A stretch of 64,000 bases of DNA. Source: Allacma fusca. Its lineage: Eukaryota; Arthropoda; Collembola; Symphypleona; Sminthuridae. Position numbers and translations under genes: made by a program. Positions 8,945-56,700 of the stretch are shown here, piece by piece. Position 1 is the first letter of the stretch. Each line of letters opens with the position of its first letter. The stretch is from contig OX359245.1 of the NCBI GenBank assembly GCA_947179485.1, positions 9,591,001 to 9,655,000 on the forward strand. The letters run 5' to 3'. Under the pieces are notes generated by a model. The model saw nothing but the letters and a program-made list of their open reading frames with translations, made no database searches and was not told the DNA's origin.

Positions 8945-9190
8945 TCAAGTGCTGAAAGACAACTGCGGGTTCATGTTCGGGTCGGGTTCACATCTTCAGG
9001 TATCAACTTCAGGTAATTTTTCAGGTACGAGTATTCTAGTTATATCCGACTAAAAATACCTGGCGAGTAAAGTATTTGCCAGGATCCGATTGCCCGAAAG
9101 TTCGGGTCGAAGAAATTTTTTACCTGAAATGTCAAGTACGGTTCGGGTTCATTGCGGATCCTGATTTTTTCCTACCTAAAAGCAGCTCTG
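8945..9190. mobile_element. Short word-rich element (TTCAGGTA / TTCGGGT)
   Basis: Within about 245 bases the words TTCAGGTA, TTCGGGT and CAGGTACGAG recur in degenerate form, unlike the AT-rich flanks. The ends carry AAGTGCTG on the left and, read inward from the right, CAGAGCTGC, which are weakly similar. This fits a decayed non-autonomous hAT-like element of the same style as the better preserved copies at 16357 and 40205. I could not find a convincing target-site duplication, so both the ends and the class are tentative. Confidence 0.35.
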
Positions 9191-12100
9191 CTAAGAATAT
9201 TCTATCTGCAGATATTTTAGCGCACAATCGAGCAGACCTTGGTAAATTTATCTACTCATATATCAAATATCCAAACAGAGTAACAAATTATTGAATGGCG
9301 TCCACGCTTGGCTAATGTAAAAACAGATTTTGAATCTGTTGAGTGTTGCGATTTGGGTTCAATGCTCTCCTTTTCTTAAACAAAATCAACTGGACGTTAT
9401 AGAATCTCTTGAACACCTTTAATTTCAAAGGACTTCCGTGCAGTCACATCTTTAACTTTACAATTGGAAATGAAAATGATGAATTAGCGCTTATAGCCAA
9501 ACCAAAAAATATTTAAGTTTCAAAAACTCTTACAGCTGGAGTCAAGGACGCGGGGGAATTTGATTTGGTTATTGTTTAAAGCGAGTTCGGTACGTGAAAT
9601 TAAAATCCTCATGTAAGACTATGAAATAATTTTGCAATAACTGTGTCTGCCACCAAAAATGAAAAAACATGAAATTTCTTTCAACGTTGTTCCGTGTATG
9701 CTAAAGGTTAAAGCAATTCTCAACGTATTTGCGACATAAGAAATTCTTACCCTGAAATCCCATAACTTTACTATAAATAGCAATCCGAACATTGTATGAA
9801 TCTCGGCAGGTGAATAAGTCAAATTTTAAAAAATCTAGAACTAAAATGACTAAATACTGGAGGAATCAAACATGACATGATTATTACTTGGGGTAGTGAA
9901 AGGAAATGAATTTGTACCGTGAATTTGAATTATTGTAATGTAAAAAATGCTCTAAAGCGGTATACATTTCAATATTGAAAAAGTACCTGTTTTCAAATTC
10001 GAAGCTTTCATGCTCCTTGAATTTCTTTTACTTGCAATGTTAATGAAGTGCAGAAGCTGTCCAGCCAAAGTTTGGAAAGATTAATCACAAAAGTTTTGTT
10101 TTAATCAAATTTATATACATAGTAAATAACTTTAGTTGTAATTTGGTATTTATCCCGAGCTTCCTCCGAAAATAATTGTCTAGAATGGAGACATGTTTAT
10201 GGATCCTCTGACACTCACTGTAAACGTACATTTTTTTTAAATAATGGCCTGTATGTTATGAATTTCTGTTCCACCTTTAGCTTTCCTTTAAGTACAGATT
10301 AAAAGCTGAACTGTAATTTATGTACCACTAAAATCGGTTGAAGTGCTAAAAACAATTGTTTTATATTTATTTTAATTTTTAGAACTTTGAACTCCATCTT
10401 ACCACAATCAATAAAATTCAACAGTGAATGAAAAAGTGTCAGGAAAATTCAAAATATAAATATTTATAAAAATAAAAGTATGTATACATATATATTTTGT
10501 GCAATAAAAAAATAATTACAAAATTCCACTATTATTTTAAAAATATTTCTGCATTCACAAAAACTTTTCGGCAATTCTTGTTCAGTAAACTTACGGATCA
10601 CGACCACATTTCTCAACGTACGAACACGAAGATAAAATGCTTTATTTTCAAAACAATTAAGCAGTTTAAGAAAAATCAAATTTTGCTTATACTTTTTTAG
10701 TCAAATTGTCCTCAAACCCTGATCCAGGTTAATGAAGTAAGTATGAAAAAATCTGTATCAGCATTTGCTACAATTGGGGGAATCAAACTACAAATTGGAA
10801 AATTATCAATTTTATAAGAGAAAATAGAGGATGACGGGATTATCGGGCATATTAGAAAAATCTGCATAATTTTTTATGCAAAAATCTGGCTTCACAATTA
10901 GTGTCAGTGGCATTTTGGCTATTTTAATTCGAGGGTAAATTGAGCGATTTTGCCGGAATCGTGGGATAAAACACAACAATTTGTACAAGTTGGGTATCGA
11001 TTTGAAAATCTATTTGCAATTTTAAAGAAAAAGTGTTTTCATTGTCGAAAATTTTCCTTACCATGGTTTCGTTTGTGTTTATGTCCCGACTCCCAACACT
11101 ATATTGATAAGAGTTATATAAGCTGCAAGTAATATATCTGCAAGTAACACAAAGAAAATAATATTTCTGATCGTAAATATTACTAGAAATGTTTTTTTAA
11201 GAGTGGTCGGTTCTATTACCACCTGTAGTGAACATTAAACTGATTTCCTAATCATTGTATCTGCAATATCTATGACATATTAACGTCAATTTCATTCTCA
11301 TCGCTGAATTGTACAAACGCTTCCAAATCTTGTAGTCTTGAATTCCCGGAATCTTTACGGATTTTTCTTTTAATATCCACTGCAGCTTTGCTTGCACTTG
11401 CATGTCTGCATTGTGCATTTAACTGTATGCCTTCTTTTAACGTTACTATACAAATTATAGTTTACATTATGCGTTCCAGAACTTTCCAGTGTAACCAGAT
11501 TTATCTTCCAGTCGTCCCATCGTTTTGGTTGCCATATAACTGGTAGTAAGACAAGATGACGATAAGCCACAGAAAATTAAAATAATACAAACAACTGTAT
11601 GCTCACACAAAGTTCAATATGCAGTGAGATGCGCTTTGACTTGCTACTACGTGCATTGAGAAACCGATACTTAACAAATTTTACAAATTTTAAAATTGGT
11701 GGCGGAAATAGAGAGTTCCGTGTGCATGGTTTATTTATGGCAATTTTTCCAAGGCAAAATATATTATACGCCAATTCTGCCAGAATGGCATAAAAAATCG
11801 TTTTCATCAAAATCATCAAAATTAATGAATACACCAGGACATAACGTTTACAAAATTATTTACTGGCGTGATTAACGAAAACATGTTTTAAAGATAACTT
11901 ATTTCATAGCATCTTTCCACACTCTAGTGCTAAAAATAGCTAGTATACTGCACTGGTCGGAGTTTTCTTCCCAAGGAAAAAATATTTCTTGCAGGGAAAA
12001 CGTTAAAGGGAAGGGATTCTGTTTAATAATAACTTTTTAAGATTCGTCGATCCGTTTTTTGGCAGGGGTTTTCAAATTTGTTGTCGTGTTTCTTGGAAAT

Positions 12101-13384
12101 TTGTTAAACGAACAGGAATTTTTAGATTGAATTACCTTATTTGACAGGGATTTGACGTTATGCAGGGAAATTATTTTTGCCGACAGGGATTTTGAAAATC
12201 GTTGACCTTTTCATCAGTGAAATTCAGAAGTTATCTACCTGCTAGTTTTATAAAATCCCATCCCCTGGTACACCCCATCATAAGAATTCTACAAAAACAT
12301 CTGCTTACTTGATTCACAGACCATCACAAAATCTTTTTCAACTGGCGTCCAACTCTATTTTGTGTCCTAACTTTCAGTTACTTGAATGTGCCATCAAAGT
12401 TGGTTTGAACCATTTTGTTTTGATATCACCACAAATGGTGTATGGTCTCCCGTGGTAAGTGCGTAATTTTAGTTTGATATTTCCCCGTAATTCTTGATTT
12501 CCTTCACATGGACGGAATCTGTTTTTTTCCGGCGACGTACTTGATGCGTCTCTGCGTTGAGAATTTTGGGAGTGAACTTTTAGCAAGTGGAAAAACGCTG
12601 AGAGAAATTCAGGTTCTGGAGCGAAACTGTGAACAACTCGATAAAGAAAGCGCTGCGTTGAGCACTTGTTCTAGACCTGGTGTTTGTTTCCGTTCCAATA
12701 GTATATATTGAGGGGAAAAATGCTATACTAACTTGTTGGGGATGCTCAGTAAGATAAAATCAAAATAAATACGCTTAAATTTTCAACTGAATTCGAAGTA
12801 GTGGGCTTAAAAAGGTTTATCCGAATGCGCATTTTCCAAATTACCTTGTTGAAAGAACTTGATATGCAAAACATCTCAATTCAATCAAAAACAAAAGAAA
12901 TGTAAAAACATCCTTCAGATCCAGAATCCGTTAGGATTTCTGACTTTGCTACACATCCCACAATCCTACAAAGTCAATCCAACGTTGTGTAATCCCTAAT
13001 TGATTTTGTTGTAAAATGTAAATAACGTCCTGTCTTAAATTAATAATTAGCCAATTTAATTACATAAATGTAGCAATGCATTAAGAAGTATTTGTGTTAT
13101 GACCAGAAATTCAGTCATATTTTGAATTTCAGCTGCTTATTCTAGTTACTTGTTCTTATAGGCTTCAAATTGTTAAAGGTTTGCAGTAAGTTAATTTTTG
13201 AGAACATCTGATATTCAAAACAAAAATCTCTCAATTCTTAAATTATTTATATTAAATATTTTACCAAGCAAACTTATATGCACGGTTTCTTCTGTCATTA
13301 CAATACGTTATAAATTAACAGTATATTGTATTTAAAACTAAAAGCCACATTCTAGGATCAATTTCAACTTCTACAATAATTGAT
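9191..13384 (+). repeat. Degenerate repeat field, second block
   Basis: This is AT-rich sequence with no gene I can support. Module I recurs at about 11965-12210 and is alignable by eye with 8300-8530 and 4565-4740; each copy holds several tandem-like versions of ACAGGGATTTTTAAATTTG. GGCGTG boxes lie near 9296, 11864 and 12343, the last followed by CCTAACTTTCAGTTACTTG. The stretch 12395-12505 resembles 7065-7165, sharing TTTGAACCATTT, the CACCACAAATG region and the CTTGATTTCCTTCACA end. The frame at 12508-12711 is open and less AT-rich, but it has no recognisable domain. Confidence 0.5.
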
Positions 13385-13625
13385 TCGTGTATCCGCAGAT
13401 AGGATCGGATATCCGCGGATAGGATCGGATAGCTCCTTTTTCTTATCCGATGGCTTCGGATAGGATAAATACGTCATCCGAATATTTACGGATAAGCTTC
13501 GGATAAGATTATCTTTAATCCGATGGAAGCGAATAGGATCGGATACGCTTCAGTTTTATTGGTAAAAATTCGGATCGGATAGGATACGGATAGGATAAGG
13601 GAATTATCCTATCCGTTGAGAACCT
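13385..13625. mobile_element. GGATA-word cluster, probable short TIR element
   Basis: About 240 bases are saturated with GGATA and its complement TATCC, as in GGATCGGATATCCGCGGATA, on both strands and at irregular spacing. This is not a regular satellite. The cluster abuts the next word-rich element at 13629. The right edge reads CTAAGGTTCTCAACGGATAG when viewed inward. I see no clear matching left terminus or target duplication. Its assignment to a hAT-like class rests on analogy with the other word-rich elements in this window. Confidence 0.35.
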
Positions 13626-13628
13626 TAG

Positions 13629-14018
13629 ATGAGACTGTAAAACTAGGAAAAAACCATGAGTGAACCCGAATCTGAATTTAATAGAGACGATGGAAATTGA
13701 AAATCTTAGATTCACCCGTTGGATTGGTTTTGCAACTTCATGCTACAAAGTTGCAAGATTCAAGTAATTACTTGAAATCCAAGTTCGGGTTCAAGTCAAT
13801 TCCAAGTTCGGTTCTCAAGTTTTTTGGAGCCGACATTCAAGTATCAGATCAAGTTCGGGTTTAGGAAAGATTACTTGCAAGATATGACTTGGTATGGCAA
13901 GTAATTCCTGGGACCCGAAACGCCAAGTTCGGGTACTGACAAATATCTACTTGAAAGTTCAAGTGCAGGTCAAGTTCAAGTTCGGATCCTCAAAATATTT
14001 GAACCGAACGCAGGTCTG
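13629..14018. mobile_element. CAAGTTCGGGT-word element, copy 1
   Basis: This is a roughly 390-bp element dense in CAAGTTCGGGTT and its variants. It is the reverse complement of 56036-56405: long matches include the stretches around AAGATATGACTTGGTATG and CAAATATCTACTTGAAAG. One end is well defined by both copies as CAGACCTGCGTTCGG (here on the minus strand, ending at 14018). That terminus fits the CAnnnnTG style of hAT ends. The other end is near a shared GTTTTACA..TCTCA stretch. It is too short to code for a transposase, so it is a non-autonomous element. Confidence 0.6.
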
Positions 14019-14061
14019 ATACACAACTTACTATGTACTACATTTAGAGAAATCTGGATAT

Positions 14062-14311
14062 AAAGTACCCGAGTAAAAGTACGGGTACGACACTAAGATA
14101 CCCCCGTATGGGTACAATTTTCGAATATTTTTCGGGTACGCGTACAATGCGGGTACAGGTACATGGTTTGAGATTGCATTGAGGGTACGAGTATGAAAAA
14201 TTTGTATCCAGATACTCGGGTATGGGTACGGGTATAGATAACAGTTATTTCAACACCCGCACTTCGGGTACTGATACGGGTACCAATTTTTCGTACCCTT
14301 GCCGAGTACTG
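14062..14311. mobile_element. GGGTAC-word element
   Basis: About 250 bases are dominated by GGGTACGGGTACA-like words on both strands. The ends are imperfect inverted repeats: AAGTACCCGAGTAAAAGTAC on the left and, read inward from the right, CAGTACTCGGCAAGGGTACG. No target duplication was found. It lies directly between the CAAGTTCGGGT element and the TIR element at 14355, so three or four insertions are stacked here. Confidence 0.45.
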
Positions 14312-14354
14312 GTTTTAATGCACTAATTATGAGTACAATTGAAAAAAATAGAAA

Positions 14355-16116
14355 GATCCCGAGTAGAAATGACTGGTCAGATTTACGTCTGAAAATGGGA
14401 ATCGACGTTAGTTGACGTTAAACTGACTAAGCTCAAATTGTTGGTCACAGATGCGATGTTCCATGAACGTCAATGAGACTATCACAAATATTATCGCAAT
14501 TCTCAACAAAAATACAACGTTCTTTTAACATCAGGACCTAACGTTAATCAATAAAACATTCACGACGTTTAGTTAACGCAAAATCCCCGCCAAATAACGA
14601 CAGCAACTATACCAATGGTTATATTTAATTACGTAAACTTGACGTAAATAATAGTGCCTCCTAGCAATTGCCTTCTGTAGACACATTACATACATACGTC
14701 AAGCCCAGTCGTTAATGCAACGTCAAATTTTGGTCAAACATGTAGTAAACTCGGCACATGCGTATTTACAAACTATGGCCGAGAGCGCTGTATAGTCCGA
14801 ACTTTAAATGACTTGGCTCTGATCTGTTACTTTCCTGTAACTTCTAACAGCCAATGATTACTTCTTTTCGTCAATTGTTTCAGGTAAGCAAAACAAATTA
14901 TTATTTTATATAAAAGTGTAAGTCGTGTGTATTATTTGAAGCAACGAGTTTTATGATAAGTTATTATTAGAATGTAAATACTAAATATGTTCCTGTTTAT
15001 CAAAGGTAAGTAATTTTTAAATGATTATGGTTAAGGAAGTATGTACTTGTAAGGCAACGCTTAATGTTAACTATTATTAATGTTGAAAGGTAGAAACCCC
15101 TAATATTTATTTGGAATAATTTTAAGGTTTCAATTTGTGACAATTTTCAACATTTTTAATATCTGATAGTGTGTCGCCAACACTATCAAGTATACCCCTA
15201 CCACATCAACAATCAACATTCTTTCCAGCAAATAGTTTCTAATGCAGAAGGACAAATAAACAATAAATAGTTTAATTGTGATTTATATGAATAATGTCCT
15301 CAAATATTATAATTAGTTGTAAGTTTTTAAAAGATGCAGGAGAGAGAAAGACTTTATTGACACTGCTTCTCAATAGAAGTAGCCCTTATGGACTCAGTAT
15401 ACTATTAACAATTTTCAATTAAGTAACTAATTAGTATAATTTATGACTTATAAAGATGATTATTACAAATTAATGCACTGTTCTTAAGAACTAAAGATAC
15501 TATTTCTTCAATAACTTTCATTGGTATCCTAAATCGTTTTAGGAATGTTACAAAAAAATTTGAAATTGTTCCTCGTGCCCCAATGTACAGTCCAATTGTT
15601 TCCACTTCTTTTAGATTGAATTTTGATTGAAAGTAGGGAATGCATTGATCATAAATGGATTTCTTTTCTTGTTGTGCTTTCTTTAAGTTGCAATTAAATC
15701 TAAAAGCGAAATATTTCTTATTTTCAGGTTTCATTTTGACGATCGGTGGGCAGAAATTGAGATTTGGAATCAGGAATAAGGACAAGAATGCTGCGGACAA
15801 CTTTGAATGATGACTTGTAGAGAAATATGAAATGCACTATTTAATTATTTTTTGGGATAGAATTTAATCAGTAAATTATATTTCAACCCCCGTGAACAGG
15901 GAGGTTAAATTGCGTTGCAATAACGATAGTATTTGGCGTAAACCAGACGTTATTTCTATAGTTATATTTTCGCAAGGTGGTGACGTTCAGCTGTCGTTGT
16001 CAAAGCGGACATATTGTATTCAGCTGGACGCCACAACTGGACTTTGTTCTGACCAATTGACGTTAATTTTTAACGTACTAATAACCGTGCACTGACCAAA
16101 ATTTCTACTCGGGATC
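14355..16116. mobile_element. 1.76-kb TIR element with ACGT-rich ends, copy 1
   Basis: Perfect 16-bp terminal inverted repeats GATCCCGAGTAGAAAT occur at 14355-14370 and, inverted, at 16101-16116, each followed inward by GGTCA. Both subterminal regions are rich in TGACGTTAA / AACGTC words. A paralogous unit at about 55978-56035 reads GAGTACAATTGAAAAAAC and then directly GAAGAGGATGTCCTA, without the element, so it serves as an empty site. A related element is at 43434-45057. No transposase is visible; a LINE 3' fragment lies inside (15333-15800). I cannot assign a superfamily, and the exact target duplication is unclear. Confidence 0.7.
15333..15800 (-). pseudogene. 3' end of a non-LTR retrotransposon (C-terminal endonuclease-like piece)
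   Basis: On the minus strand a 119-codon frame (15800 to 15441) contains, in order, PPIVKM, an LKKAQQEKKSIYDQ stretch, then IGLYIGARGTI and a C-terminal NHLY. This is the pattern I associate with the restriction-like endonuclease and C-terminal tail of some non-LTR polyproteins: an EK..Y helix, then a hydrophobic strand ending GARGTI. Downstream the strand carries AATAAAGTC about 80 bases after the stop and ends in a CT-rich tail near 15333. That fits a 5'-truncated insertion sitting inside the TIR element. The family call is from memory of the motif pattern and needs a profile search. Confidence 0.45.
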
Positions 16117-16356
16117 TTTTGAAAAGGATGTCCTATATCAGTCTCTTGAGATTTATTCAAAGGCAATTCTATGCCTGTACATACTAAAAGAAAACCTTCA
16201 GTGAACTTTTCATACCGTAGTGCAAACATTTTGGCGGGAAAATTAAAAGTAACTACAAGAATAATATTTGCAGAACCAGTGTCGCTAAAAATCAGTATTT
16301 GTAAATTGTCGATCCTAGTAATTTAGTTTCAACATTTGTCCGACTACAATCGCTTG
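16117..16356 (+). repeat. Repeat-unit segment between two insertions
   Basis: This stretch continues the array unit interrupted by the TIR element: AAAGGATGTCCTATATCAGTC, then GAATAATATTTGCAGAACC and TTTGTAAATTGTCGATCC. The same order is found at 56000-56600, where the unit lacks both insertions present here and instead has the word element at 56036. Confidence 0.6.
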
Positions 16357-17203
16357 CAGGGTTGGAGTATTCAAAAAATGGATACGATTCTGATTAAGAT
16401 TAACCCTAACGGATTCCAATCCCAATTGGAATTTATTTGATTCAAAAAATGAAAATTCCAATCCAATTTATTCGAATATTTTCTATGAATTCCAATATAA
16501 TTAAAATACTTTATTTATTAAATATTAAAAGTTTATTGGAGTTACTAGAATCCCGAAAAACATGGTGACATTTATACCCGAAAGTATCTAACTTCGGCAA
16601 TTATGAATGAAAAGAAGCCAGTGAATATGCCAGACCATTTTATAAAGGCATTACTGCTTAATCTACATAAGTACCATAAACGTATACCTATGACTTGTTG
16701 ATTCACTTTGTTTTTCAGGGATACTCTAGTAGTAAAAACGTGAGCTGCATGCTTTTTCCACTGACAAAATTATATCCCTTTTGATCAATTGAGAAAATTA
16801 CTTGCAAATGAATTCATTGCTTACAAATTGTAGCAAATTGATTTCCAGAAAAATTAGTATCGTTGATCTGCGTCATTTTATAGAGTCAAAAGTAATCATA
16901 AATTTTGTATTCCAATGAGTAGTTTAAAAACGTTATGTAATGGCTGACTGAAAACTTCTTTTAATGTTTGAATTTACGAGATAAACTTCAAAATGTCATT
17001 GTTTTTTCGGATATCTAAGCATTTGATACAGTATTCAAATACATTTTGAATACTAATTCGAATACAGATATTTCTTTTCGATTCAATATAGATTTACATA
17101 CTTGAAAAAATATATTTAAGAATACTAATTCCGACAAAAATACCAAAAAATATGAATGTACTACCGATTCCAATTCTAATTTCAAATCGAATGTCCAGCA
17201 CTG
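16357..17203. mobile_element. hAT-like non-autonomous element (GATTCCAATT words)
   Basis: The termini are CAGGGTTGGAGTATTC on the left and, read inward from the right, CAGTGCTGGACATTC. They are flanked by ATCGCTTG (16349-16356) and ATCACTTG (17204-17211), an 8-bp target duplication with one mismatch. An 8-bp duplication with CAGNGNTGGA ends is characteristic of the hAT superfamily. The interior is filled with GATTCCAATT / GAATTCC / CGAATAC words. The paralogous unit at 56580-56660 reads ..CTACAACCACTTGATACTG.. with no insertion and only one copy of the octamer, confirming the ends. No transposase ORF is present. Confidence 0.85.
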
Positions 17204-18864: not shown

Positions 18865-19672
18865 GATGCAAACCATACTTGCAACCGTTCAGTTCATAAA
18901 GTGGTGAACTGAACTGAACTAGCCCTTATTCTTATTGTTTTTGAATGAACTTGAACGAACTAGCTAAATGCAAACTTTTGATTGAATGAATTTGAATTGA
19001 ACTCAGAAAAACTTATTTTGAATGTGAACGAACGTTCATCATACGTTCATGTAACGCAAATTGAACTGAATTGAACTTAAGAGTCAGGGTTTAAATATAA
19101 GTTCATATAATCATGATCACAAAACGAATATTATACATGTATTCCTAAATTGCATGATAAAAAATGTTAATTTTGTAATCTTAAGAGCTAGTCCCCATTT
19201 TTTGATTCTCCATTTCAATGACATTAAATTACAAATCAATCAAATTACTTACATGCAAACAGATTTTTACATTCAAGAACGAGTATTCAGCACATTTTAG
19301 TCGAAGTTGCATGAATTAAAAAGCCCAATAATTGTAAGCAGAGTTATATGATTTATTAATTTGGAAGCGCTTGGTTAATGTTAATGTAAATTATGTAAAT
19401 ATATCGTAATTGTCACGCTAATGACAGATAAAGTGAACTGAACTGAGCGACCGAAAAGTATATAATGAATTGAATTGAACTTTGAAAAAATACTGCAAAG
19501 ATGAATTGAACTGAAAGTAACGACTGGAAATTACGCAGTGAATTGAACTGAACTACGACAGGATTTTAACAAGGGGAACTGAACTTAACTGAATGACACG
19601 AAAAATTTTGGGACGTGAATCGAACTGAATTTGAACTTTGGACCAAAACTGCAAGTATGATGTAAACTAACA
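18865..19672. mobile_element. GAACTGAA-word element, hAT-like
   Basis: About 800 bp carry dozens of degenerate GAACTGAA / TTCAGTTC words on both strands. The inward-read right terminus starts CAGTGTTAGTTTACATCATA; the left end has the related AAACCATACTTGCA, and CATACTTGCA is shared by both. The insertion interrupts a segment whose uninterrupted paralog is at about 24890-25055: TTGAGCTT follows in both. The same word family recurs inside the element at 40205-40804. The left terminus is eroded and no target duplication is certain. Confidence 0.55.
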
Positions 19673-31709: not shown

Positions 31710-32554
31710 CGCTATGTTGTTCAAATTTGTTATTTAGAATAACCTGTAATAAATTTAAGGTACTCTATTTTATTCGTTGCCCCAAGTTGTTGACCAATTC
31801 CGTTTCAATTTTTGAAACCTACCTTAAACTAACCCTTAAATTGCCTGGGTGCAGAACACAGCCTTGCAGGTGTCTTCCAAAGCCGTGTTATCCAGATTTC
31901 ATAATTTTGTAGAAGTCTATAGGGAAATATAGCCCAAATAAGTCCCGAGATAATTTAACTAAAGTTGAGTATCCAAGAATAACTATAAGTAGATGACTGT
32001 TGTGTTGGAAATCAAAGGTGGTTCAAGCGCTAAAATCCGATTGTTGTTTTTATAATTGAACCCATGATGAATATTGTAGGATTTTATTGCATTTACTGAC
32101 GGTGTTATTAAATATTTCAACTAAATGTAAACTTGTGAAAGTTGGAACAACTCGTACAATGGTCGCAAAAAGCATTTCAGGTATGGCTGCGTAGTCATTT
32201 TTAGTTTCTGCATTTTTCTAATTTTGAAAAATTTTCGGTATTGCACATTGAAAAGCTTCTATGTTTGTGTCAGTCGTTTTTACTTCTTTAAAAATTTTCG
32301 AATTTCAACGGTAAAGCCTTTCCAGAGTTTTACAGAGCTAGTGTTGCCCCGTCGAAGTAGTACCCCTTCAGGGGTGCCCTTAATCATTGCGAAACGACGA
32401 TTTTTGACTTGTTTTACTTTTGCTATTCCGTTTTACCTGTTTGTCCATTTTAATTGGATTTGTTTTAGCCTCAAATATGGAGTATAACCGGTAAGTTTGA
32501 TTTTAAGCGGTGAAACTGAAGGTAATTTAAAAGAAATATGATGGCCAGAGCTAT
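31710..32554 (+). repeat. Module G copy 3 with module E remnant
   Basis: Positions 31710-32310 are alignable with 24365-25010, making this one of the youngest-looking duplications in the window. Shared landmarks are TTTGTTATTTAGAATA, GGTACTCTATTTTA, AATATTGTAGGATTTTA, TTGGAACAACTCGTAC and ATTGAAAAGCTTCTATG. From about 32400 it continues with a partial module E (GTTTTACTTTTGC..TTTGTCCATTTTAATTGGA). Confidence 0.65.
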
Positions 32555-32755
32555 GCAAAATACTTGGTCTTCGATAACAAAATACAATACCTGAAATAAA
32601 ATGAAAAAAATATAAAATACAAAGTAAAATACCTCAGGTTACGTTGGAAAAATACAAATAAACATACAATACATTGTAGGTAATTTAAAATACTCAAATA
32701 CAAAATACTGTGTTTTAAATAAAATTCTTTTCTTAAAATACTCACCTATATAATG
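32555..32755. mobile_element. AAAATAC-word cluster
   Basis: In about 200 bases the word AAAATAC (with AAATACAATACC variants) recurs about ten times on the + strand, at irregular spacing. This is the same style as the other word-rich elements. Possible ends are CAGAGCTATGCAAAATAC on the left and, inward from the right, GTGAGCATTATATAGGTGAG, which share little. Class uncertain. Confidence 0.35.
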
Positions 32756-32856
32756 CTCACTCTTTCCGGTTTCTAGAACACAAACAAATTTAAGAAGCAA
32801 TCTTTCAAAGCACAATTAGATAACTATTCACTTCAGAGACATAATAAGACATGTGT

Positions 32857-35800
32857 AGTATGTATGTATGTATATTTTTATTGATTTGAGCTAACGCTCC
32901 TTCAATATGTATAAGTACAAGTGTGATTGTTTACATTCTTTTTGAAATTTCCTCAAGAAAACGATAGATTAGTGTGGCAAAATCCTTATTAGTATTTTTA
33001 ATTAAGCTTTCCCAGAAAGTTTCAATGAAGGGATGATGCGAAGGATTGATATTGGATAGGCTTGCTGGTCTATAGTTGGAGAGCAAGTGGCATTCAAGGA
33101 AGAGATGACTCCAAGTGCTGCTAAACTGTGAACAGAAAATACATTTGTCCCGGCGTAGAGTGATCTCGTTGAAATGAATAAATATTGACCCCATTCTGAT
33201 TCGGGCTAAGATTCCTGCGATTCTTAACGGGGTAGGGGTTTTTGTATACTCTTCTGCATAGTCGTGGGTTTTGATTCGTTTGTATAAGGGGAAATGAGTC
33301 GATGCCATCATTTTGGCTACATCTTGAACTACTAATGATTGTTGATACTTGCTAACTATCTTAGGTATAGCAGCGCGTATTTCGTCCGGCGATTTGCAGT
33401 TCCATAAACCTTTAGGCAGAAAATCCTTGATTCTGAAATAGAGCAGTGAGCTCCAGTTGAAATTTTGAAGGTCCGTTTGTTCTTCCCACATGTCCTTGTA
33501 ACAGCAGAGAAGCAAATTGCTGGTATTTTTCTGAAGACATTTAGTCCATAATCTTAATGATCGCCGTATGATATCCACACTTATTCTTTTAAGTTTGAAA
33601 TCTAGGCTAAGAAAGAACCCAGGGGTGTTTACTGGGAGCTTTAGAAGCTTTTTCACAAAAAAGTTTTGGAGGTTGTCAATTTCTTCCAGGTGACGCAGTC
33701 CCCAGATTTCGGCGCCATAGGTCACCACGGAACGAACCATTGAGTTGAAAAGTGAGAAATGAGCTGTGCTTAGTGGAAGTTTGGCTTTTACTAATAGCGG
33801 CCATAGGGCTCCGATTGCTGCTTTACCTCTGCTTAGAAAGTCAATCAGTGTTCGATTAGGGGAGCCTGATTGAGAAAATAGGACACCCAAATATTTATAT
33901 TCATTAACGCACTCGAGTTTGCTCTTTCCCCAGAAAAATGTGTGTTTCTTGGGTTTACCACCTGGCCTTTGAAAAACTACGATTTGGGATTTAACCGAAT
34001 TGAGAGTTAATTTATTTTGAGCAAAGAATTTTTTAACAACGTCAATTTTTCTCTGAAGGCTTTCGGCGGAGAGGGCGAGGATTACAACGTCGTCGGCATA
34101 CAGAAGGGCATGCACATGCCTTTCCCCGATCTTAATTGGACTTGTAAAGGAACTGTCAAGTGATGCGATGATTCCATTAATGAAGATATTAAATAGAGTT
34201 GGGGAGAGACTCTCCCCCTGTAGAACACCAATATTAATTTTGAGCGGTTCAGTAAGGCCATCCTCTGTCTTAATGCGTGCTTTAGCTTGACCATATATTG
34301 CCCTGACACATTTTATAAACTTTGAACTTATTCCGGCGGAGGCCATTTTGGTCCAAAGTAGATTATGGGTTACACAATCAAATGCACCCGATAGGTCAAC
34401 GAAAAAGCAGAATAATTTGGAATTGAGTCTCAACTGTTTATGAATCAAAGATTGTAGTAGAAATATGTGATTAAGACATCCCATGGTTGGCTGATATGCA
34501 GCCTGCAAGTCCGTTATGAAATTTGTTTTCTCATTCCACTTGAGCAGCCTATAGTTAAGTATAGTGGTAAACAATTTCAGTTTAGTCATGACCAGTGAAA
34601 TGGGCCTATAATTTTTGGGGTTATCACAATCTCCTTTTTTGAAAAGTGGTGCTATGGTAACTTGAGCCCATTCAGGGGGAATCTCTCCAGAGAAATACAT
34701 TTTGTCAAACAAAGTCCGCAGTTGTTCAAGGCTGGCCACAGTGAAGGATTTCCAAATTTCATTAACAAAAGCATCGGCTCCAGGGGCTTTATTTTTCTTC
34801 AGATGGTTCACAGCCTTCGTGATTTCAGATAGACTGAAGGGTTGGTCGAGTTCGCCGTCAATATTATCGTTGCCCATTATGCAAGCGGTGACCGGACAAT
34901 TGATTTTGGATTGAAACATTTTCTCATAATAGACAGTCCATGTTTGCTTATCAATAGGGCAGGTAACTTTAGGTATGTAAGGACGGAGTTCACGAATCGC
35001 TTTCCAGAAGTCACAGCTCGTTCTGGTGTTAATAATTTTAGACACCATGTTGTCTAGATAATTTTTACGGCTATTTTTTAACTTATGCTTATACTGTTTT
35101 TTGGCAATAAAGTAATCATTAACATCTTGAGTTAGTTTGGTTGCCCTAAGTCTTCTTAATTTCCTCTTTAGCTCTCTTTTCAGAGAGAGGCATGTAGAGT
35201 CAAACCATTTCGCAGGTTTAATATATTTGCAAGGTTGTTTAATCATATCACATTTCACAAGTGCGTTGTTGATAGTTTTAGAGAGTAAATCATCCATCTC
35301 ATAAATAGAGGATTTATCCGAAAATAAAAGGTTTAGTTTGATTTCTGAACTGAAAGTATCTGCTTTTTCATCTGACCATTTTATTCTTTTACCAATCTCA
35401 CTGCTACTAGCATGGCTACGAATTGACAAAGTTATAGGCATATGATCGGAGTGAAAAGAGTCACTGATATTGAATTTTTCGAAATATTGAACAAGGGAGG
35501 TTGACGCAAAACATAAATCAATGGTACTTTTACCAGTTTTACTGACGAATGTATATTTTGAGGAAGATTCAAGACCACTAATACCATTAATGAGAACAAG
35601 ATTGTAGGATGTAGCAAGATTAAGTAATTTTTGGCCAAAAGGGTTTACTGTTTGGTCTTCCGAGTGCCTATGTGTTTGAGAACCCAAGGTTTGGAGACTG
35701 CCTACTCTTGAGTTGAAATCTCCCATCAGTATGATGTTGTAAGATAGCAGTTCAAGTTTTTCAATATGTGTAAACATCTCACTGAATTGACCTTTCTCAG

Positions 35801-36185
35801 ATATTGGGTTGATGTAGCAGAACAAAACTGCAAGATTTTTAATTTCATCAAGTTTTTTAAATGTGAGTATAATTAGCCAATTATTTTTAAAGTATAGTTC
35901 GAATTTAATGGCGTTGTGTATTGCTGCAAAAAGTCCACCTTTATGTCTGCCGTGCGACGCATCTTTTGTGGCGTTAACTACAAAAGTTGTGTGTGTATTA
36001 TCAAAATAGTTAATTGGAACCGTAGACCAGGTTTCACAGAAGCACATAATTATAGGTGATATATCTTTAATATCACTGAAGAAATCTATTGTTTTATTGG
36101 CTATCCCATGAACATTCCAGAATAAAATTTTGAGTGGTTTAGTTGGATTCACATTTTTAATGTCACTAAAGAAGTCCGTAGTTTT
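32857..36185 (-). mobile_element. Non-LTR retrotransposon (LINE), 5' part lost in the gap
   Basis: The element runs on the minus strand. Its 3' end is defined by a short untranslated region after the stop at 32931, an AATAAA signal (32877-32882) and a (TACA)n-type tail at 32857-32873. A tandem-tetranucleotide tail instead of poly(A) is usual in several LINE clades of the CR1/L2/I/Ingi kind; I cannot place it in one by eye. The reading frame is open to the gap edge at 36185, so any 5' UTR, first ORF and target duplication are not visible. Confidence 0.95.
32931..36185 (-). CDS. LINE polyprotein: apurinic-type endonuclease and reverse transcriptase
   Basis: The frame encodes over 1080 residues with no stop or frameshift. 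Numbering from the GTG codon at 36152, an endonuclease/exonuclease/phosphatase domain occupies about 8-245 (WNVHG at 12, CETW at 39, GDFNSRVG at 144, SDHMP at 235). The reverse transcriptase spans about 480-760 (KNYRPISL at 513, FVDLSGAFD at 584, GVLQGESLSPTLFN at 642, catalytic YADD at 685, YKYLGVLF at 753). Near the C-terminus a CxxC..H..C motif lies at 1004-1021. The product nicks the target and copies the element RNA in the nucleus. GTG at 36152 is not a credible eukaryotic start; codons reading KTTDFFSDIKN precede it and run into the gap. The intact frame suggests recent activity. Confidence 0.93.
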   Translation of the reverse strand, partial: KTTDFFSDIKNVNPTKPLKILFWNVHGIANKTIDFFSDIKDISPIIMCFCETWSTVPINYFDNTHTTFVVNATKDASHGRHKGGLFAAIHNAIKFELYFKNNWLIILTFKKLDEIKNLAVLFCYINPISEKGQFSEMFTHIEKLELLSYNIILMGDFNSRVGSLQTLGSQTHRHSEDQTVNPFGQKLLNLATSYNLVLINGISGLESSSKYTFVSKTGKSTIDLCFASTSLVQYFEKFNISDSFHSDHMPITLSIRSHASSSEIGKRIKWSDEKADTFSSEIKLNLLFSDKSSIYEMDDLLSKTINNALVKCDMIKQPCKYIKPAKWFDSTCLSLKRELKRKLRRLRATKLTQDVNDYFIAKKQYKHKLKNSRKNYLDNMVSKIINTRTSCDFWKAIRELRPYIPKVTCPIDKQTWTVYYEKMFQSKINCPVTACIMGNDNIDGELDQPFSLSEITKAVNHLKKNKAPGADAFVNEIWKSFTVASLEQLRTLFDKMYFSGEIPPEWAQVTIAPLFKKGDCDNPKNYRPISLVMTKLKLFTTILNYRLLKWNEKTNFITDLQAAYQPTMGCLNHIFLLQSLIHKQLRLNSKLFCFFVDLSGAFDCVTHNLLWTKMASAGISSKFIKCVRAIYGQAKARIKTEDGLTEPLKINIGVLQGESLSPTLFNIFINGIIASLDSSFTSPIKIGERHVHALLYADDVVILALSAESLQRKIDVVKKFFAQNKLTLNSVKSQIVVFQRPGGKPKKHTFFWGKSKLECVNEYKYLGVLFSQSGSPNRTLIDFLSRGKAAIGALWPLLVKAKLPLSTAHFSLFNSMVRSVVTYGAEIWGLRHLEEIDNLQNFFVKKLLKLPVNTPGFFLSLDFKLKRISVDIIRRSLRLWTKCLQKNTSNLLLCCYKDMWEEQTDLQNFNWSSLLYFRIKDFLPKGLWNCKSPDEIRAAIPKIVSKYQQSLVVQDVAKMMASTHFPLYKRIKTHDYAEEYTKTPTPLRIAGILARIRMGSIFIHFNEITLRRDKCIFCSQFSSTWSHLFLECHLLSNYRPASLSNINPSHHPFIETFWESLIKNTNKDFATLIYRFLEEISKRM

Positions 36186-36385
36186 NNNNNNNNNNNNNNN
36201 NNNNNNNNNNNNNNNNNNNNNNNNNNNNNNNNNNNNNNNNNNNNNNNNNNNNNNNNNNNNNNNNNNNNNNNNNNNNNNNNNNNNNNNNNNNNNNNNNNNN
36301 NNNNNNNNNNNNNNNNNNNNNNNNNNNNNNNNNNNNNNNNNNNNNNNNNNNNNNNNNNNNNNNNNNNNNNNNNNNNNNNNNNNNN
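36186..36385. other. Assembly gap (200 N)
   Basis: A run of exactly 200 N, probably an arbitrary size. The left edge is inside the LINE coding frame and the right edge is inside a Tc1-like transposase frame. The gap therefore hides the LINE 5' end and most of the Tc1 element. Confidence 1.
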
Positions 36386-36529
36386 TTTGAAAATTACTAT
36401 GTCAACAATAGGGACCAACCCCCGAAGATTAAACATGAGCTAATGCAAGCTCTACATGAAGAATGGGCAGCTAATACCATCTACCAATACCGAAAAGCTT
36501 GTGTATTCCGTTCCGAACTGTATTTCTGA
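36386..36529 (+). pseudogene. C-terminal fragment of a Tc1-like transposase
   Basis: Starting at the gap edge, 47 codons are open to TGA at 36527-36529. They contain NNRDQPP, then HELMQALHEEW, matching the conserved C-terminal part of Tc1-family DDE transposases (the polar linker and the 'L..AL..EW' helix after the last catalytic acid). The usual following IP..Y...(V/I)..M..R is replaced by a diverged tail (TIYQYRKACVFRSELYF), so the copy may be frameshifted near its end. The catalytic core is not visible because of the gap. Homology is recalled, not searched. Confidence 0.7.
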
Positions 36530-40093: not shown

Positions 40094-40204
40094 TTATTTG
40101 GAATTTATTTCCTTTGAGAGGTATCGACTGGCTGTTGTGTATTCTTGTAATGCAAAAATCTTAAATATCTGATATAAAAGAATACATAATGTAACAGTCG
40201 TGTA

Positions 40205-40804
40205 TAGTGGTCGGAACAATTATATTCAATTCAAAATTTACAATTCAATCCAGTTCGAATACTGAACTGAATTAAAATTGGGGTTTCAATTCGGTTCAGA
40301 AAAAACAAGTCAATTCAATTCAGTTCATTCTACTAACTGAACTGAATTGTAAACCATTTGGTTTCGCCGAGCATATTTACAAATAAATACTGCAAAGTGG
40401 CTAGGGTGGCGCTTCAGCCAAGGCCATCTCTCCTTACCCTTTTGGTAGTATTATGTGGACCTCCTTTAAAAGATACAAATTCAAAAGTTTGAAAAAATAA
40501 AGCTAGTAGTACTGACTGGTAAGTGTAAAAAATGCCATTGAAATCGGTGGAACAGTTTGTCGTTTTTTACGTACGAAAATGCATTTACGATTTCAACTTC
40601 AACCAATAACGAACTCTTCCAAGAGAGTGGTCTAAGAATTTGCACAGACAGTTTGCACAAAATTGGGTCGGAGAAATACGTTGGGACAAACAGTCCCAAG
40701 GATCCACGGACAACAGTATCTTATAAGGGGGCGGACGCCACCCTAAAAATATTAACACATTGAATTGTAAAATTGCAATTTAAACTGAATTGGTCCGACC
40801 ACTA
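40205..40804. mobile_element. hAT non-autonomous element with perfect 8-bp target duplication
   Basis: Termini TAGTGGTCGGA (40205-40215) and TCCGACCACTA (40794-40804) are perfect inverted repeats. They are flanked on both sides by GTCGTGTA (40197-40204 and 40805-40812), an exact 8-bp target duplication, as made by hAT transposases. The element is 600 bp long. The left third is filled with GAACTGAATTG words, like 18865-19672. A second inverted pair, TAGGGTGGCG (40402-40411) and CGCCACCCTA (40736-40745), lies inside and may be a nested element. No transposase is present. It sits about 110 bp after the stop of the membrane-protein gene and so may provide its 3' end (AATAAA near 40382 and 40494). 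Confidence 0.92.
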
Positions 40805-40885
40805 GTCGTGTATACAAATAAAACTATACTATTTGTGTTTACTATTTACGGTGTGAGTCGGGCGTTAAGGTCGTGATGTAAACAA

Positions 40886-46854: not shown

Positions 46855-47125
46855 TGATGATTTTTCACTTGTTTTACTTTCATACGTCGCTTGTCCTTAT
46901 TGTTCATTTTGATTATATTTGTTTCGAACTCAAATTTGGAGTATAACCAGTAATTCTGATTTGAAACTGTGAAACTGAAGACAATATTTGTGTTAACAAA
47001 TACGATGGTTATAATCAGAAGAATTGAGAAATCTGTGAACGAGTCCATTCAAAGGAGGACGATATTAAAAATTACCACAGAACGTAATTACCTATTTAAG
47101 TTTGCTTCAACAAAAAACCGGTTTC
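46855..47125 (+). repeat. Module E copy
   Basis: CTTGTTTTACTTTCATACG, TTGTCCTTATTGTTCATTTT, AATCAGAAGAATTGAGAAAT and CCTATTTAAGTTTGCTTC match the other module E copies in order and orientation. The next unit element expected after E is absent; sequence with exon-like signals follows instead. Confidence 0.55.
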
Positions 47126-47501
47126 CAACCTCGGGTAACTTGTAAACAATTGTCGTTGAATTTTGGATTGTCTTCCCAACTTTCATGCGTTCTTGAAAAA
47201 AGTAAAAAATAAACTATTCACATTTGTTCAACTGGGAATCTTATTATAAAATACGATCGTTGGTTATGAAATCATTTTGCACATCTTCTCTCCTGTAGTC
47301 AAAATTTCATAAATTGTCTCTCCTGTTATAACAAAATTCTTTGTTGGCTTAATAACTAAAAACATTAGTTTGCAAAACATAGCCAAAGCAATAGTTTAAA
47401 ATACTTTTGTAGCGTTCTAAAAAACAAATGCATGCTCTACCCATTTTAAATGAGCTGAATTTTCTCTGTCACAGAAATCCTAGGTTGATGTGTGTTTGCA
47501 G

Positions 47502-51479: not shown

Positions 51480-52766
51480 ACTTTACTTTCGCACTTCGCT
51501 TTTCTTATTTGTCTATTTTAAATAGATTCTAAATTTTTTCCGCTCTTTTCAATACTAGCCAGTAATTTTATTGGAAGTTGTGAACCTCAAGTTATGTTTT
51601 TTAAAACAATTTGATTATCAGAATCACACGAATTCAATAAACAGTAAACGCGTCCTTTCGAAGCAGAAATAAATTAATTCCGGCGGGAGAAATTCCAAAG
51701 TATGTACGACCGAAATTGTCTACAGTCTATTCAAGTTTGATTAAAAGAAAAGGCCAGTTTCCAAACTCTGGTTTGACAATAAATAAAGTAAAGTCAATAA
51801 TTTAAAAAACGTATTTCATAGCAAAATCAGTAAATTGAACTAAATGTTTAATTTAATTAATTCCAAACGTCCCTTACAATTTCTAAACGATATTTTAAAT
51901 GCTAAACAGACGGTCTCCAATGGAGATGACGATTATATACTTGATTTTGTTAATCTGAATGTTCCATAGTCCTTTGCCCCTAAATAATGATAATCATTTA
52001 ACGGCTTAAAATACAAACTGAATGATACTCTGTTGCTGAATCCAAATAATATTTTCAGTGGCGTGTAAATCAATCATTTATTTCAACTTTCACTTGCTGG
52101 CAAAATTCACCCGTCTGTTTCATATTTTGGTAAATTTGTCTAACCCCCATAATATCTTGTACAAATTGGGGAAAAAGTACAGGGTGTCAGTAATGGTTTT
52201 GCCCCTCCCGCTCACGAAATAAAGGTTGAACGAATTTTAATCATTTACTTTTACAATTTGTTACAAATACATTGGAATTTAGAAGAAATCCCAAATTTCG
52301 ACAATAATTTTATTATTGGTAATTCATAAGATTTCCATTGAAGCTAATCAAATTTCAAATAATATTAAAGCTGTGCAGATCTCAGGCTAAAAATGATGTA
52401 TATAATTATCAATGGGACCAGAGGATAGGTTTCAATTAATGAATACTAAACCAACAATTTAAATGCAATTCATTCATTTTTTGTATGCAGAATTTATTTT
52501 GTTTAATTTGAATGTACAAGGAGACAATCTTCACTTGCCCCTCTCCTCCTCCAACCCACGTAAGGGAGAAAATAATAACTGATTCCTCCAGTTTTTAACA
52601 AATTTATTTCCAGATTTTCTCAGTTGTACTTTACTGACCCTTTTTAAGTTGCTTGGACACAGGGATCAGCAAAAATGGAATTTAAAGTTGAATTCTCTTT
52701 AGACTGAATTTTTTCATTCTTTTAACTTCCCACAATACAGGGAATTTCCTATACAGTGGTTTCCTC
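51480..52766 (+). repeat. Modules E, box and D in order
   Basis: Module E (51480-51790) has TCGCACTTCGCTTTTC, GTAAACGCGTCCTTTCG and TCTATTCAAGTTTGATTAAA. It is followed by CAATGGAGATGACG (as at 2600), the box TGGCGTGTAAATCAATCA (52059) with TTTATTTCAACTTTCAC, a short module C start (52140-52215) and module D (52325-52720). This gives the best single view of the order E - box - C - D in the ancestral unit. Confidence 0.65.
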
Positions 52767-53227
52767 TTACAAGCAAAGTCTTCCGATGTGACCTTCAGAA
52801 TTAAATAAAAATTGGTGGAATTGTAGGCACTGCTAATAGTGTTCACACAAACCACAAACTTGATGCCATCTCCTCTGGGTTCGGGCAGTAGGACATCTGA
52901 AAGTTTGATTTTTTTTTAAAGTTTGACAGGGGGGATACGTGTTGATACATTTACATTGTTTTTCGAGCATGTGTGAACATTTGTTTGGATTTTGTTCGAG
53001 TTGCGAAAATGGATTTTTCTTATGGGATTTAACATGAAAAAATTCAAGGGAGGAAGGGCCCCCCCTGTCAAACTTTAAAAAAAAATCAAACTTTCAGATG
53101 TCCTACTGCCCGAACCCAGAGGAGATGGCATCAAGTTTGGGGTTTGTGTGAATACTATTAGTAGTGCCTACAATTCCACCAATTTTCATTTAATTCTGAA
53201 GGTCACGTCGGAAGACTTTGCTTGTTA
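52767..53227. mobile_element. Foldback element with about 169-bp arms
   Basis: Arms 52767-52935 and 53059-53227 are inverted copies, with about five mismatches in an 83-base stretch I compared. They are separated by a 123-base spacer. The outer ends are TTACAAGCAAAGTCTTCC and its complement with TAACAAGC. The inner arm ends are AGTTTGACAGGGGGG and complement. No ORF crosses the arms. As RNA, either strand would form a very long near-perfect hairpin. The similarity of the arms is much higher than between module copies, so the insertion is younger than the field. Confidence 0.85.
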
Positions 53228-54897
53228 GATGACATTCCCTTTATATTGGCAAGATTTAATTTCCACCACGATAATTATTACATCATATGGCATCCTTAAT
53301 ATCTTCCGGTAATTGCTATCCCTTGGGAATCACTATGTAGGAATTTCACTGTATTTTTTTCAGAGAACGGTTAACACCCTTTTATAGGAAATTTTATGGG
53401 AATTCAGAGCAGGTGTTTGATAGGTCCCTGCGTTGAAAATCCTGGGCATGAACCCCCATCATACTTAATCCAATCATGCTGAAGTGGGGCATTTAAGCAA
53501 TTGTTTTACAAAAATAGGCCAAAAATGTGATCTCGTTTCGGGAGCAAAATTCGGCCATGGAAATAAGATTTTGTGTCGATATAGAAAACTTTTAAGCGAT
53601 TTTTTTGTTTAACAAAATTTTATTTAAAAATGTGTACAACTCTCCTATTCCTTATATTCACCTTTGAGGGAAATACAAAGGACAAGTCTTTGCAGAAATA
53701 AGATACAATATTTGTTCCCTCTGTTGTCATTTCCATTAACATTTAGAATTTGAATTACATTTAACTTTATCAATGCTCAACCTTTTTAAAACTAAGTAAA
53801 AGTGCATTCATCGAATTATCTTTGTTTCATAGAAGAACCTTGTCGCAAACGATATTTCAAGTTAAGTCTAGGTAGTTACATCTAAAATATAATTTAGCTT
53901 TCAGTTGAAGGTTTAGATTTTCGCCTTCAAGATTAAATTTTCATTTTTATTTAGGGTTTTTTGAAATTTTGGCTAAGAAATTTGGGAGCGTAAACTTTGC
54001 GAAGGTTTTTGAGATAGCATAACTTTTTACCACCCTCAGGACTAATTATCTGACGACAGAATGTTTAAACAATTGTGAAAACTTTTAATTCATTCAAAAT
54101 GTCAAAAATACTGATTTTGAAGTACTTTGGAAGAAGTTGTAGAAAGTTGAAATAATGTCAACGCATATTTCAAAATCCTAGTCGAAATTTTGGCGGGATA
54201 TTCAAATTCCTCAATTTTTGGTCAAAATTTCAATACTTCATCGAAGGAGTCATCGACGGCTTGGCCCACTCGGAACACATTGTCGGTGATGATGTTGTTG
54301 AATAAATTCTATGATTTGATATTAATGTCAGCAGGTGTTCAAAAATTTGAAAAAGCAAATTTTAATGTAACGTGAGACTGTCGAAAAACAATTAATTTCT
54401 GCTTGCCAAAAATTCAAAATGGCAAAGGATGAAACCCAGAAGGAATTTTATCCGATTTGGTACTTCCCCTCAGAACAAATTGTCTTTCAATCAGGTTGTT
54501 AATTAAATTTTAAAAGTCAAATTCACGATAATTTGTTTTTAAATCCCGAAATCGTAGTTGGAATTTGGGATGGGTAATCGAATAAGACAATTTATTTTTA
54601 CCAAAATGTTACCTTTTTTGTCGAGAAGAAACTATCTGATATAGTCACCCTCATTTTGCGTGTCGTTAGTTGATAGCTAGTTTTTAATAAATTTAATAAT
54701 TATTGCAAAACTACCAAATTCATGTTTATAATTTCGACGCAATATTGAAAAAATATATGTTCGAACTTTGAAGATTTAAAGTACCTTCCAAATATCTTTG
54801 TGAATTGGGTCTCACTGTTCCTTCACACAACACTGGATTTCTGCTGCTCATGGATTTAATATATAAACTTTCACTTGTCCGAAAGAAAATTTCAAGT
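53228..54897 (+). repeat. Degenerate repeat field with module B
   Basis: TTTATAGGAAATTTTATGGGAATTC and GGTAGGTCCCTGCG-type sequence at 53375-53440 recur at 56755-56820 and, inverted, near 38150. CTTTCAGTTGAAGG at 53902 belongs to the post-box motif. Module B is at 54597-54632, preceded by AAATTCACG..GAATCG as at 290. No gene. Confidence 0.5.
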
Positions 54898-55977
54898 GGC
54901 GTGTACGTCTTTTATAATTTTTATATGCTCCGAAGATAACATTTGTATTTACGGGTTTGTAAAGTTTAACTGAGAATTTTGTAATAAATGTAAATTTTGG
55001 AAAGGTTTTTGACCCGACATATATATTTGCCTAGAGCGAATCATCTTAAACCTGCCCTCTCCCACAGAACTAATTATCTGATGATGTAAAAAGTAAATAA
55101 TTTTTTTGCAAATTTTATTAAGACTGGTGCTTAAAATTTTTAAATTAATGATTTTGAAGGTTGAATGTACTTTCCAAAACTTTGAATAACTTTGGCCTCA
55201 AACGATGCATTTCGGATAAAATATTAGTATTCGGAAAAGTATTTAAACGCTCTAGAAGATAAATCTTGTCAACAGGAATTTTCAAATCCTAGTCAAATTT
55301 GCCTAATTTTCAACCAAAATATCGGTATCGGGTATTGGACAAGATGAAATCAAATGAGATTACCGCTCTCTCAGTGCAAACGGTTTTTGAAGTTTTTAAA
55401 TATAAAATTTCAAATTCATGTTGACATGTGATCAAGATCTTAGCCTTTTTTTCTATCTCCCTACTATTTTTATATGTTTTGGCTAATGTATGAAATTCTA
55501 TATAATTCCAGAATTATACACACCCCCAATACCCACTCAGGATCGGAATGAATTATTGTGGGAGCTTTGGGACCTGGTCCAATGTCCAAACGAGACCAAA
55601 GGAGAAATATCGCCCTGGTTTTCGTGGTAAATAGAGATAATTTTTTTTCCACCGTTAAATCCCATAAGAAATTTTCATTTTCGAAAGTCGATGCTTTCTT
55701 TTTGCCAAATCTTTTTATTAGTTTACGGATTTTCAAAATTTAAACCGGGAATTTTTGAAAAAAACGTTAATTTGACCTGTCTTTTGCGGAAATTTTTTTC
55801 GCCCAGAAAAAATCATCTCAGTCCTGGTCTCCTCACTCAGGACTAATCGCCTTATGCCGGAATTTTTAAATCATTGCAAAAAGTTTAGTTCATGCCGATT
55901 TTGGTTCAAATTTTAAAAACCCAATGTTGAGGCCTCTAAGTTCTTTCGAAAAACTTGTATAACTTTGGGCTTTAGTT
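54898..55977 (+). repeat. Module L, second good copy
   Basis: The copy begins at the box TGGCGTGTACGTC and follows 22313-22900 phrase by phrase: AACTGAGAATTTTG, CTAATTATCTGATGATG, AAGACTGGTGC, TTTGAATAACTTTGGCCTC, GCTCTAGAAGATAAATCTTG, AAATTCATGTTGACATG. After 55470 a third, related passage (55800-55980) repeats the CTCAGGACTAATC..CTTATGCCGGAATTTTT phrase found at 21870. Nothing in it is conserved as protein. Confidence 0.6.
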
Positions 55978-56700
55978 TTAATTTTTGAGTACAATTGAAA
56001 AAACGTTGAAAATTTTTTTTGAAGAGGATGTCCTACAGACCTGCGTTCGGGTTAAGTATTTTAGTTGTCCGAACTTGAACTTGACCTGCACTTGAACTTT
56101 CAAGTAGATATTTGTCAGTATCCGAACTTGGCGTTTTGGGTCCCACGAATTACTTGTCATACCAAGTCATATCTTGCAAGAAATCTTTCCTAAATCCGAA
56201 CTTGATCTGATACTTGAATGTCGGGTCCATAAATCTTGAGAACCAAACTTGGAATTGACTTGAACCCGAACTTGGATTTCAAGTACTTGAACCTGGCAAC
56301 TTTTGTATTATGAAGTCGCAAAACCATTGCAAACGGTGGAAATAAGATTTTTAATTTCCGGCGTCTTTATTACAGGATTCGGATTTCCTAGTTTTACACT
56401 CTCACCGGACAATTTACTTCAACAGTTTTTCAAAAATTATGAAAAATTAGAAGAATAGTTTTAAGTTCTAAGATTTACAGAATAACAGTCACTCCAAATG
56501 AAAGTGAGAATAATATTTGCAGAACCAATGTCGCTAAAAAATTCAGTATTTGTAAATTGTCAATCCTTGTAATTTAGTTTCAAAATTTGCCCGGCTACAA
56601 CCACTTGATACTGTAGCAGCGTCCATAAATAATTTTTGGGCAGACCCAAGTTCCTGACACATGCTTTCGTTAGAGCATTCTTTAATTAGTTTTAATTACG
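55978..56700 (+). repeat. Unit paralogous to 14330-17290 (carries the empty sites)
   Basis: GAGTACAATTGAAAAAAC, GAAGAGGATGTCCTA, GAATAATATTTGCAGAACC, TTTGTAAATTGTCAATCC and CTACAACCACTTGATACTG occur here in the same order as around the two insertions at 14355 and 16357. The present unit lacks both insertions but has its own at 56036. It therefore gives target-site evidence for the two others. Confidence 0.75.
56036..56405. mobile_element. CAAGTTCGGGT-word element, copy 2 (inverted)
   Basis: Read on the + strand this is the complement of 13629-14018, starting CAGACCTGCGTTCGG and containing CCGAACTTGAACTTGACC and TCAAGTAGATATTTGTCAG. The left insertion point falls directly after GGATGTCCTA of the host unit. 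The far end near GTTTTACACTCTCA is shared with copy 1. Non-autonomous. Confidence 0.7.

Follow-up and report, generated by a model that had tools for sequence, protein, structure and literature searches.

Nine places in a 64,000-nucleotide stretch of the collembolan Allacma fusca genome (GenBank GCA_947179485.1, contig OX359245.1, forward-strand positions 9,591,001 to 9,655,000; hereafter the window, numbered from its first letter) are packed with degenerate copies of short words, and we consider these word elements, with a probability of about 0.7, to be old non-autonomous cut-and-paste transposons made of two hAT-like end zones, three of them, and probably others, being members of the hAT superfamily. 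The elements at 40205 and 16357 are non-autonomous hAT-type transposons, and that at 18874 is a probable one. All three carry inverted ends and 8-bp duplications and hold their words mostly towards the ends, and a paralogous site devoid of the element is present for one of them. The window is AT-rich and crowded with old dispersed repeats, and all copy comparisons, empty-site tests and enrichment tests were made within it.

Elements with hAT-type ends

Each place was searched for an 8-bp target-site duplication (TSD) combined with terminal inverted repeats (TIRs), and its score was compared with those of 300 random boxes (median 10, 95% level 13, 99% level 15, maximum 18), the size of the box searched at each place being somewhat unlike that of the null boxes. 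The element at 40205 scored 20, above all 300 boxes, and displays the features of a hAT transposon, namely, a perfect TSD (GTCGTGTA, 8/8) and C/TA-type ends (TAGTGGTCGG, 10/10). It harbours a 344-bp stretch (40402-40745) with inverted ends of its own (TAGGGTGGCG, 10/10), which shows no clear 8-bp duplication and is perhaps another transposon. The element at 18874, listed from 18865 in a preliminary description of the window, likewise combines an 8-bp TSD (ATGCAAAC/ATGTAAAC, 7/8) with short inverted ends, the latter departing from the strict hAT form, and its score of 17 lies between the 99% level and the maximum of the null. Its right flank continues in a paralogous copy from 25035, which the left flank does not adjoin. 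At 16357, a TSD (ATCGCTTG/ATCACTTG, 7/8) and CAG-type ends (8/10) give a score of 13, only the 95% level of the null; we nevertheless accept this element as hAT-type because its empty site is present in a paralog of the host repeat (56507-56666), which spans the junction with 149 of 167 aligned columns identical. Among ten joined-flank tests, paralogs cross the junction for two insertions, this one and the element 14350-16121 described below. A strict scan for hAT ends over the whole window returned exactly two matches, at 40205 and 16357, both word elements. The preliminary description had taken all nine places for TIR elements, two of them with hAT-type 8-bp duplications; three such duplications were found (8/8, 7/8 and 7/8), and the TIR assignment is supported for these three elements out of the nine places.

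In these three elements, a short motif is repeated inside the ends, as in the subterminal regions of hAT transposons. Counted without overlap, the words are located no more than 200 bp from an end in nine of ten cases at 16357 (P 0.007), in 10 of 12 at 18874 (P 0.02), and in all seven at 40205 (P 0.059). The heptamer CAATTCA ranks first among 501 7-mers at 40205 and eighth among 612 at 18874, and each of these elements has seven copies of C(A/G)ATTCA, compared with at most two in any of 4,228 windows of 600 bp drawn at random outside the elements (that at 18874 being 786 bp long). In the sections of the literature consulted, to which all our statements on published systems refer, the Herves transposase binds C(G/A)ATTCAT, a motif critical and sufficient for binding (PMC3143072). 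CAATTCA agrees with seven of these eight bases and includes the AATTCA repeat of the Kat1 system (PMC4763223), so that its role as a putative binding motif gains outside support. CGG is preferred by most of the hAT-derived DNA-binding domains that have been assayed, and AT-rich motifs by two insect hAT proteins; for four hAT proteins, the motif agrees with the subterminal regions of the protein's own element (PMC8097297). In line with the CGG preference, CGG density in 250-bp windows exceeds the 95% level in five of ten elements (8945, 13385, 13631, 14062 and 56036), two of them barely.

Enrichment and form of the words

Word counts, including overlapping copies and with some long words tested in shortened form, were compared with 300 order-1 Markov runs of each element itself. 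The arrays reported in the preliminary description were recovered throughout, at least one word exceeding the maximum of the simulations at all nine places: TTCAGGTA at 8945 (5 copies, simulated maximum 2), GGATA at 13385 (17, maximum 8), CAAGTTC and GTTCGGGT at 13629 (11 and 8, maxima 7 and 3), CAAGTTC at 56036 (11, maximum 6), GGGTAC at 14062 (10, maximum 3), ATTCCAAT at 16357 (13, maximum 10), GAACTGAA at 18865 and 40205 (19 and 10, maxima 6 and 3), and AAATAC at 32555 (9, maximum 3). In a local scan, 34 of 2,549 windows hold a 7-mer at least six times, compared with 18 in 20 simulated sequences combined. Scoring 6-mers across the whole window yielded six clusters exceeding the highest of 12 simulated control windows; they correspond to seven of the nine named places and to no other part of the window, the elements at 16357 and 40205 falling below the threshold.

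The words run mainly on one strand at seven of the nine places, the exceptions being 8945 and 40205. Most places have a word of their own, as had been proposed. However, GAACTGAA/GAATTGAA is common to 18874 and 40205, two elements with different ends (CATACTTGCA versus TAGTGGTCGG), and GTTCGGGT is common to 8945 and 13631, and the idea of one word per family was therefore rejected. Outside the window, viral contigs contain such word patterns at 22 and 9 places, all 31 with at most five GGATA or three CAAGTTC per 240 bp, which we take as chance, and a 24-base segment taken from the CAAGTTC element found no match in prokaryote genome contigs.

Places without recognisable ends

The remaining word elements lack ends or duplications above chance (Table 1). 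In the array 14064-14310, possible ends (AGTACCCGAG/AGTACTCGGC) accompany a possible duplication (GGATATAA/GGTTTTAA, 6/8). The AAAATAC array (32547-32765) gave no duplication in the TSD and TIR search, but it starts about where homology to the host repeat stops, suggesting an insertion. The two CAAGTTC copies (scores of 10 at 13631 and 12 at 56036) share 92% identity over 253 nt and occupy distinct positions in the host repeat, in opposite orientation. Their array part is more similar than their left part (236/254 versus 93/113 columns, P 0.005). In the duplication test of this pair, the top-ranked lines merely realign the inner sequence of the element.

Such places may represent other DNA transposons with repeated transposase sites, for example of P/Galileo, Mutator or foldback-like type, a possibility envisaged for 8945, 13385, 14062, 32555 and the CAAGTTC copies. 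Their 8-bp duplications do not rise above chance, the ends of Galileo contain repeated THAP sites (PMC3688188), and a neighbouring element of unassigned type (14350-16121) has longer inverted ends. On the other hand, duplications were perhaps erased by age, and other duplication lengths, tried for the CAAGTTC pair only, gave none that was convincing. We regard this explanation as possible but doubtful, and the hAT superfamily as the presumptive home of the elements lacking recognisable ends.

The 1.77-kb element 14350-16121, absent from the preliminary description, is probably another insertion. The words ACGTCAA/ACGTTA lie close to its ends, and paralogs at 55983-56035 and 519-735 cross the junction without the element, the cover on the left side being short. 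The minus strand of the element contains an open frame of 131 amino acids (15441-15836) that matches no Pfam family.

Table 1. Coordinates of word elements and associated features in the window (TSD+TIR, combined search for an 8-bp target-site duplication and inverted ends)
Feature	Position	Strand	Characteristics
TTCAGGTA / GTTCGGGT word array	8950-9180		Word counts; TSD+TIR score 10
GGATA/CGGATA word array	13385-13626		17 GGATA; TSD+TIR score 12, within the null range
CAAGTTC(GGGT) element, copy A	13631-14018	+	TSD+TIR search
GGGTAC word array	14064-14310		10 GGGTAC; TSD+TIR score 12, not significant
Inverted-end element, 1.77 kb	14350-16121		Ends AAAGATCCCGAG; TSD+TIR score 16
hAT-type non-autonomous element	16357-17203		Word ATTCCAAT; ends CAGGGTTGGA / CAGTGCTGGA; strict hAT scan
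Probable hAT-type non-autonomous element	18874-19659		Word GAACTGAA; ends CATACTTGCA (10/10)
AAAATAC word array	32547-32765	+	Word counts; left edge at end of host-repeat homology
Left target-site duplication GTCGTGTA	40197-40204		Right copy 40805-40812
hAT-type non-autonomous element	40205-40804		Word CAATTCA / GAACTGAA; ends TAGTGGTCGGA; strict hAT scan
CAAGTTC(GGGT) element, copy B	56036-56403	-	TSD+TIR search
Paralog of the host repeat lacking the 16357 element (empty site)	56507-56666	+	Single target copy

Other features of the window

Strongly diverged blocks of dispersed repeats (families D1, D3, D6, D14, D19, D20 and D2) recur in similar order at several places in 1-64000, and some word elements are located inside them. 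A long reading frame of a long interspersed nuclear element (LINE), with endonuclease and reverse transcriptase domains, occupies the minus strand at 32931-36401, broken only by a run of 200 N bases (36186-36385). In addition, an inverted repeat (52762-52934 and 53060-53232) with arms of 173 nt, 96% complementary and spaced by 125 nt, may be an element of foldback-like type or may result from a recent duplication.

Organisation and origin of the word elements

In the explanation that we favour, each element would consist mainly of the two end zones required by a hAT transposase, each zone comprising a short inverted end followed inwards by numerous degenerate copies of a putative transposase-binding motif. 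The motif would be recognised by the N-terminal domain of the transposase, and the enzyme would be provided in trans. That the motif may be a binding site is proposed by analogy, one word matching published hAT motifs. The reason why the short elements look filled with their word is probably that little besides the two end zones is left in them. The end lengths required by known transposons (200 and 150 bp for Tol2, about 100 bp for Tag1, at least 200 bp for Ac and about 220 bp for Hermes; PMC10368747) fit such zone sizes, so that elements under about 400 bp would look filled.

The preliminary description had gone further, proposing that, within each family, the binding word of the family's lost transposase multiplied and came to take over the element, each word thus designating one enzyme. 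Most elements do differ in word, the short ones are dense in it throughout, and most hAT-derived domains assayed have a specificity of their own (PMC8097297). However, TTCGGGT occurs in two elements, and the word common to 18874 and 40205 is associated with different ends, so that one enzyme cannot be identified from the word alone. Furthermore, most words in the three proven elements are found in the end zones, so that takeover by amplification is not needed to account for them, and the words of the CAAGTTC copies are kept no better than the spacers (93.7% versus 92.0%, P 0.63). No such takeover is demonstrated or needed, and we consider this scenario unlikely. What stands of the earlier proposal is the notion of non-autonomous hAT elements whose word is a putative transposase motif, which fits the three elements with ends and the Herves/Kat1 match, but is not supported at the six places without recognisable ends or duplications.

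Simple-sequence or satellite DNA degenerated in place is a very improbable origin, since the direct orientation of the words along most elements and one short stretch of true tandem repeats (13390-13431) are outweighed by the absence of any further tandem array at the named places, the transposon ends of three elements, the empty site of one, and the presence of the CAAGTTC element at two different positions in opposite orientation. Tandem Repeats Finder reported that single short array at the nine places, which argues against regular satellites. Together with the dispersed CAAGTTC copies, this result led us to reject a satellite nature for the set; it is refuted for 40205 and 16357 and, less strictly, for 18874.

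Several observations weigh against the hAT end-zone explanation itself. Six of the nine places reached best TSD+TIR scores of 10 to 12, within the null of 300 boxes, and the CAAGTTC copies are without a convincing duplication at their common boundaries at any length from 2 to 11, including the 8 bp expected of hAT elements. The scans for hAT ends were set against 20 simulations, which produced 14 strict matches in total; two strict matches were also attained in 4 of the 20, and the strict scan is thus informative because its matches coincide with word elements, not because of their number. The relaxed scan gave 10 matches, including 40205 and 18874, no richer than the null (4 to 13), and its match number is therefore uninformative. 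The concentration of words towards the ends is weak within 150 bp at 18874 (7/12, P 0.13), and at 40205 it is weak (P 0.059) and inflated by the nested 344-bp stretch in the middle. The eighth Herves base, T, follows in only 2 of 14 C(A/G)ATTCA copies, and the five published motif types were compared only after the words had been seen. No transposase was detected among the reading frames scanned, which numbered only nine; eight are without a Pfam family and the ninth is the LINE. As for published systems, only 17 of 331 Ds1 elements carry at least three AAACGG copies (PMC3260210), Hermes keeps about 70% of its activity after mutation of putative left-end sites, and the binding of auxiliary transposases inside its ends is called unlikely (PMC10368747). 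The Hermes and Ds1 results argue against a simple model in which more sites are better.

A bolder extension, for which we see rather long odds, would regard the window as a library of tiny elements, each made almost only of degenerate docking sites for one extinct hAT-type transposase among many, with arrays recording lost specificities even where the ends have decayed and with CAATTCA already deciphered as Herves/Kat1-like. If the hAT reading holds, degenerate word arrays could be annotated as hAT-type remnants, and their words would serve as predictions of transposase specificity, comparable with protein-binding-array data for hAT-derived domains.

Comparison with known systems

Subterminal transposase-binding repeats are an established principle, of which the elements of the window are an instance, extreme in word density. 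Some vertebrate hAT-like repeats also bear repeated short words, and in the open-licence literature searched we found no description of elements filled by their own word.

One likeness concerns Herves, a hAT transposon of Anopheles whose transposase-bound subterminal motif is present at both ends and corresponds to the top 7-mer of 40205; this likeness is known from the motif alone, and Herves differs in being autonomous and in its eighth base, rare in the window elements (PMC3143072). The MATa element of Kluyveromyces cut by Kat1 is a short, non-autonomous hAT element, with ends 385 bp apart, between which AATTCA/TGAATT occurs six times (12 times at 5/6 matches), with the same letters as the word of 40205. 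However, it resides in a yeast, depends on a domesticated enzyme and has a much lower word density, and the stimulation of Kat1 activity by these repeats is only a speculation of its authors (PMC4763223).

In the maize Ac/Ds system, Ds1 elements are also short and non-autonomous, have in common with Ac only the ends and some AAACGG copies, and generate 8-bp duplications (PMC3260210). By contrast, AAACGG is not enriched in the window elements, being absent from nine of them and present once in the copy at 56036. Hermes contains many AAG(T/C) repeats in its end zones, which count as mostly antisense in the left end and sense in the right end when read from each tip (PMC10368747), that is, by our reading, on one strand along the element. 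For AAGT, a clear enrichment is limited to the CAAGTTC copies (19 and 18 versus about 5 expected). Hermes differs in being autonomous, and its distal repeats are unimportant in cells (PMC10368747).

Mar, a miniature inverted-repeat transposable element of the hAT superfamily in Drosophila, resembles the window elements by its length (610 bp), its non-autonomous nature, its short CAG-type ends and its 8-bp duplications, but a word array is not mentioned in the sections consulted (PMC3517528). Galileo has in its ends repeated THAP sites for the DNA-binding domain of its transposase, suggested to provide specificity, but belongs to the P superfamily and has very long inverted repeats (PMC3688188). 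Compared with these systems, it is the density and variety of words within a single 64-kb window that are unusual here.

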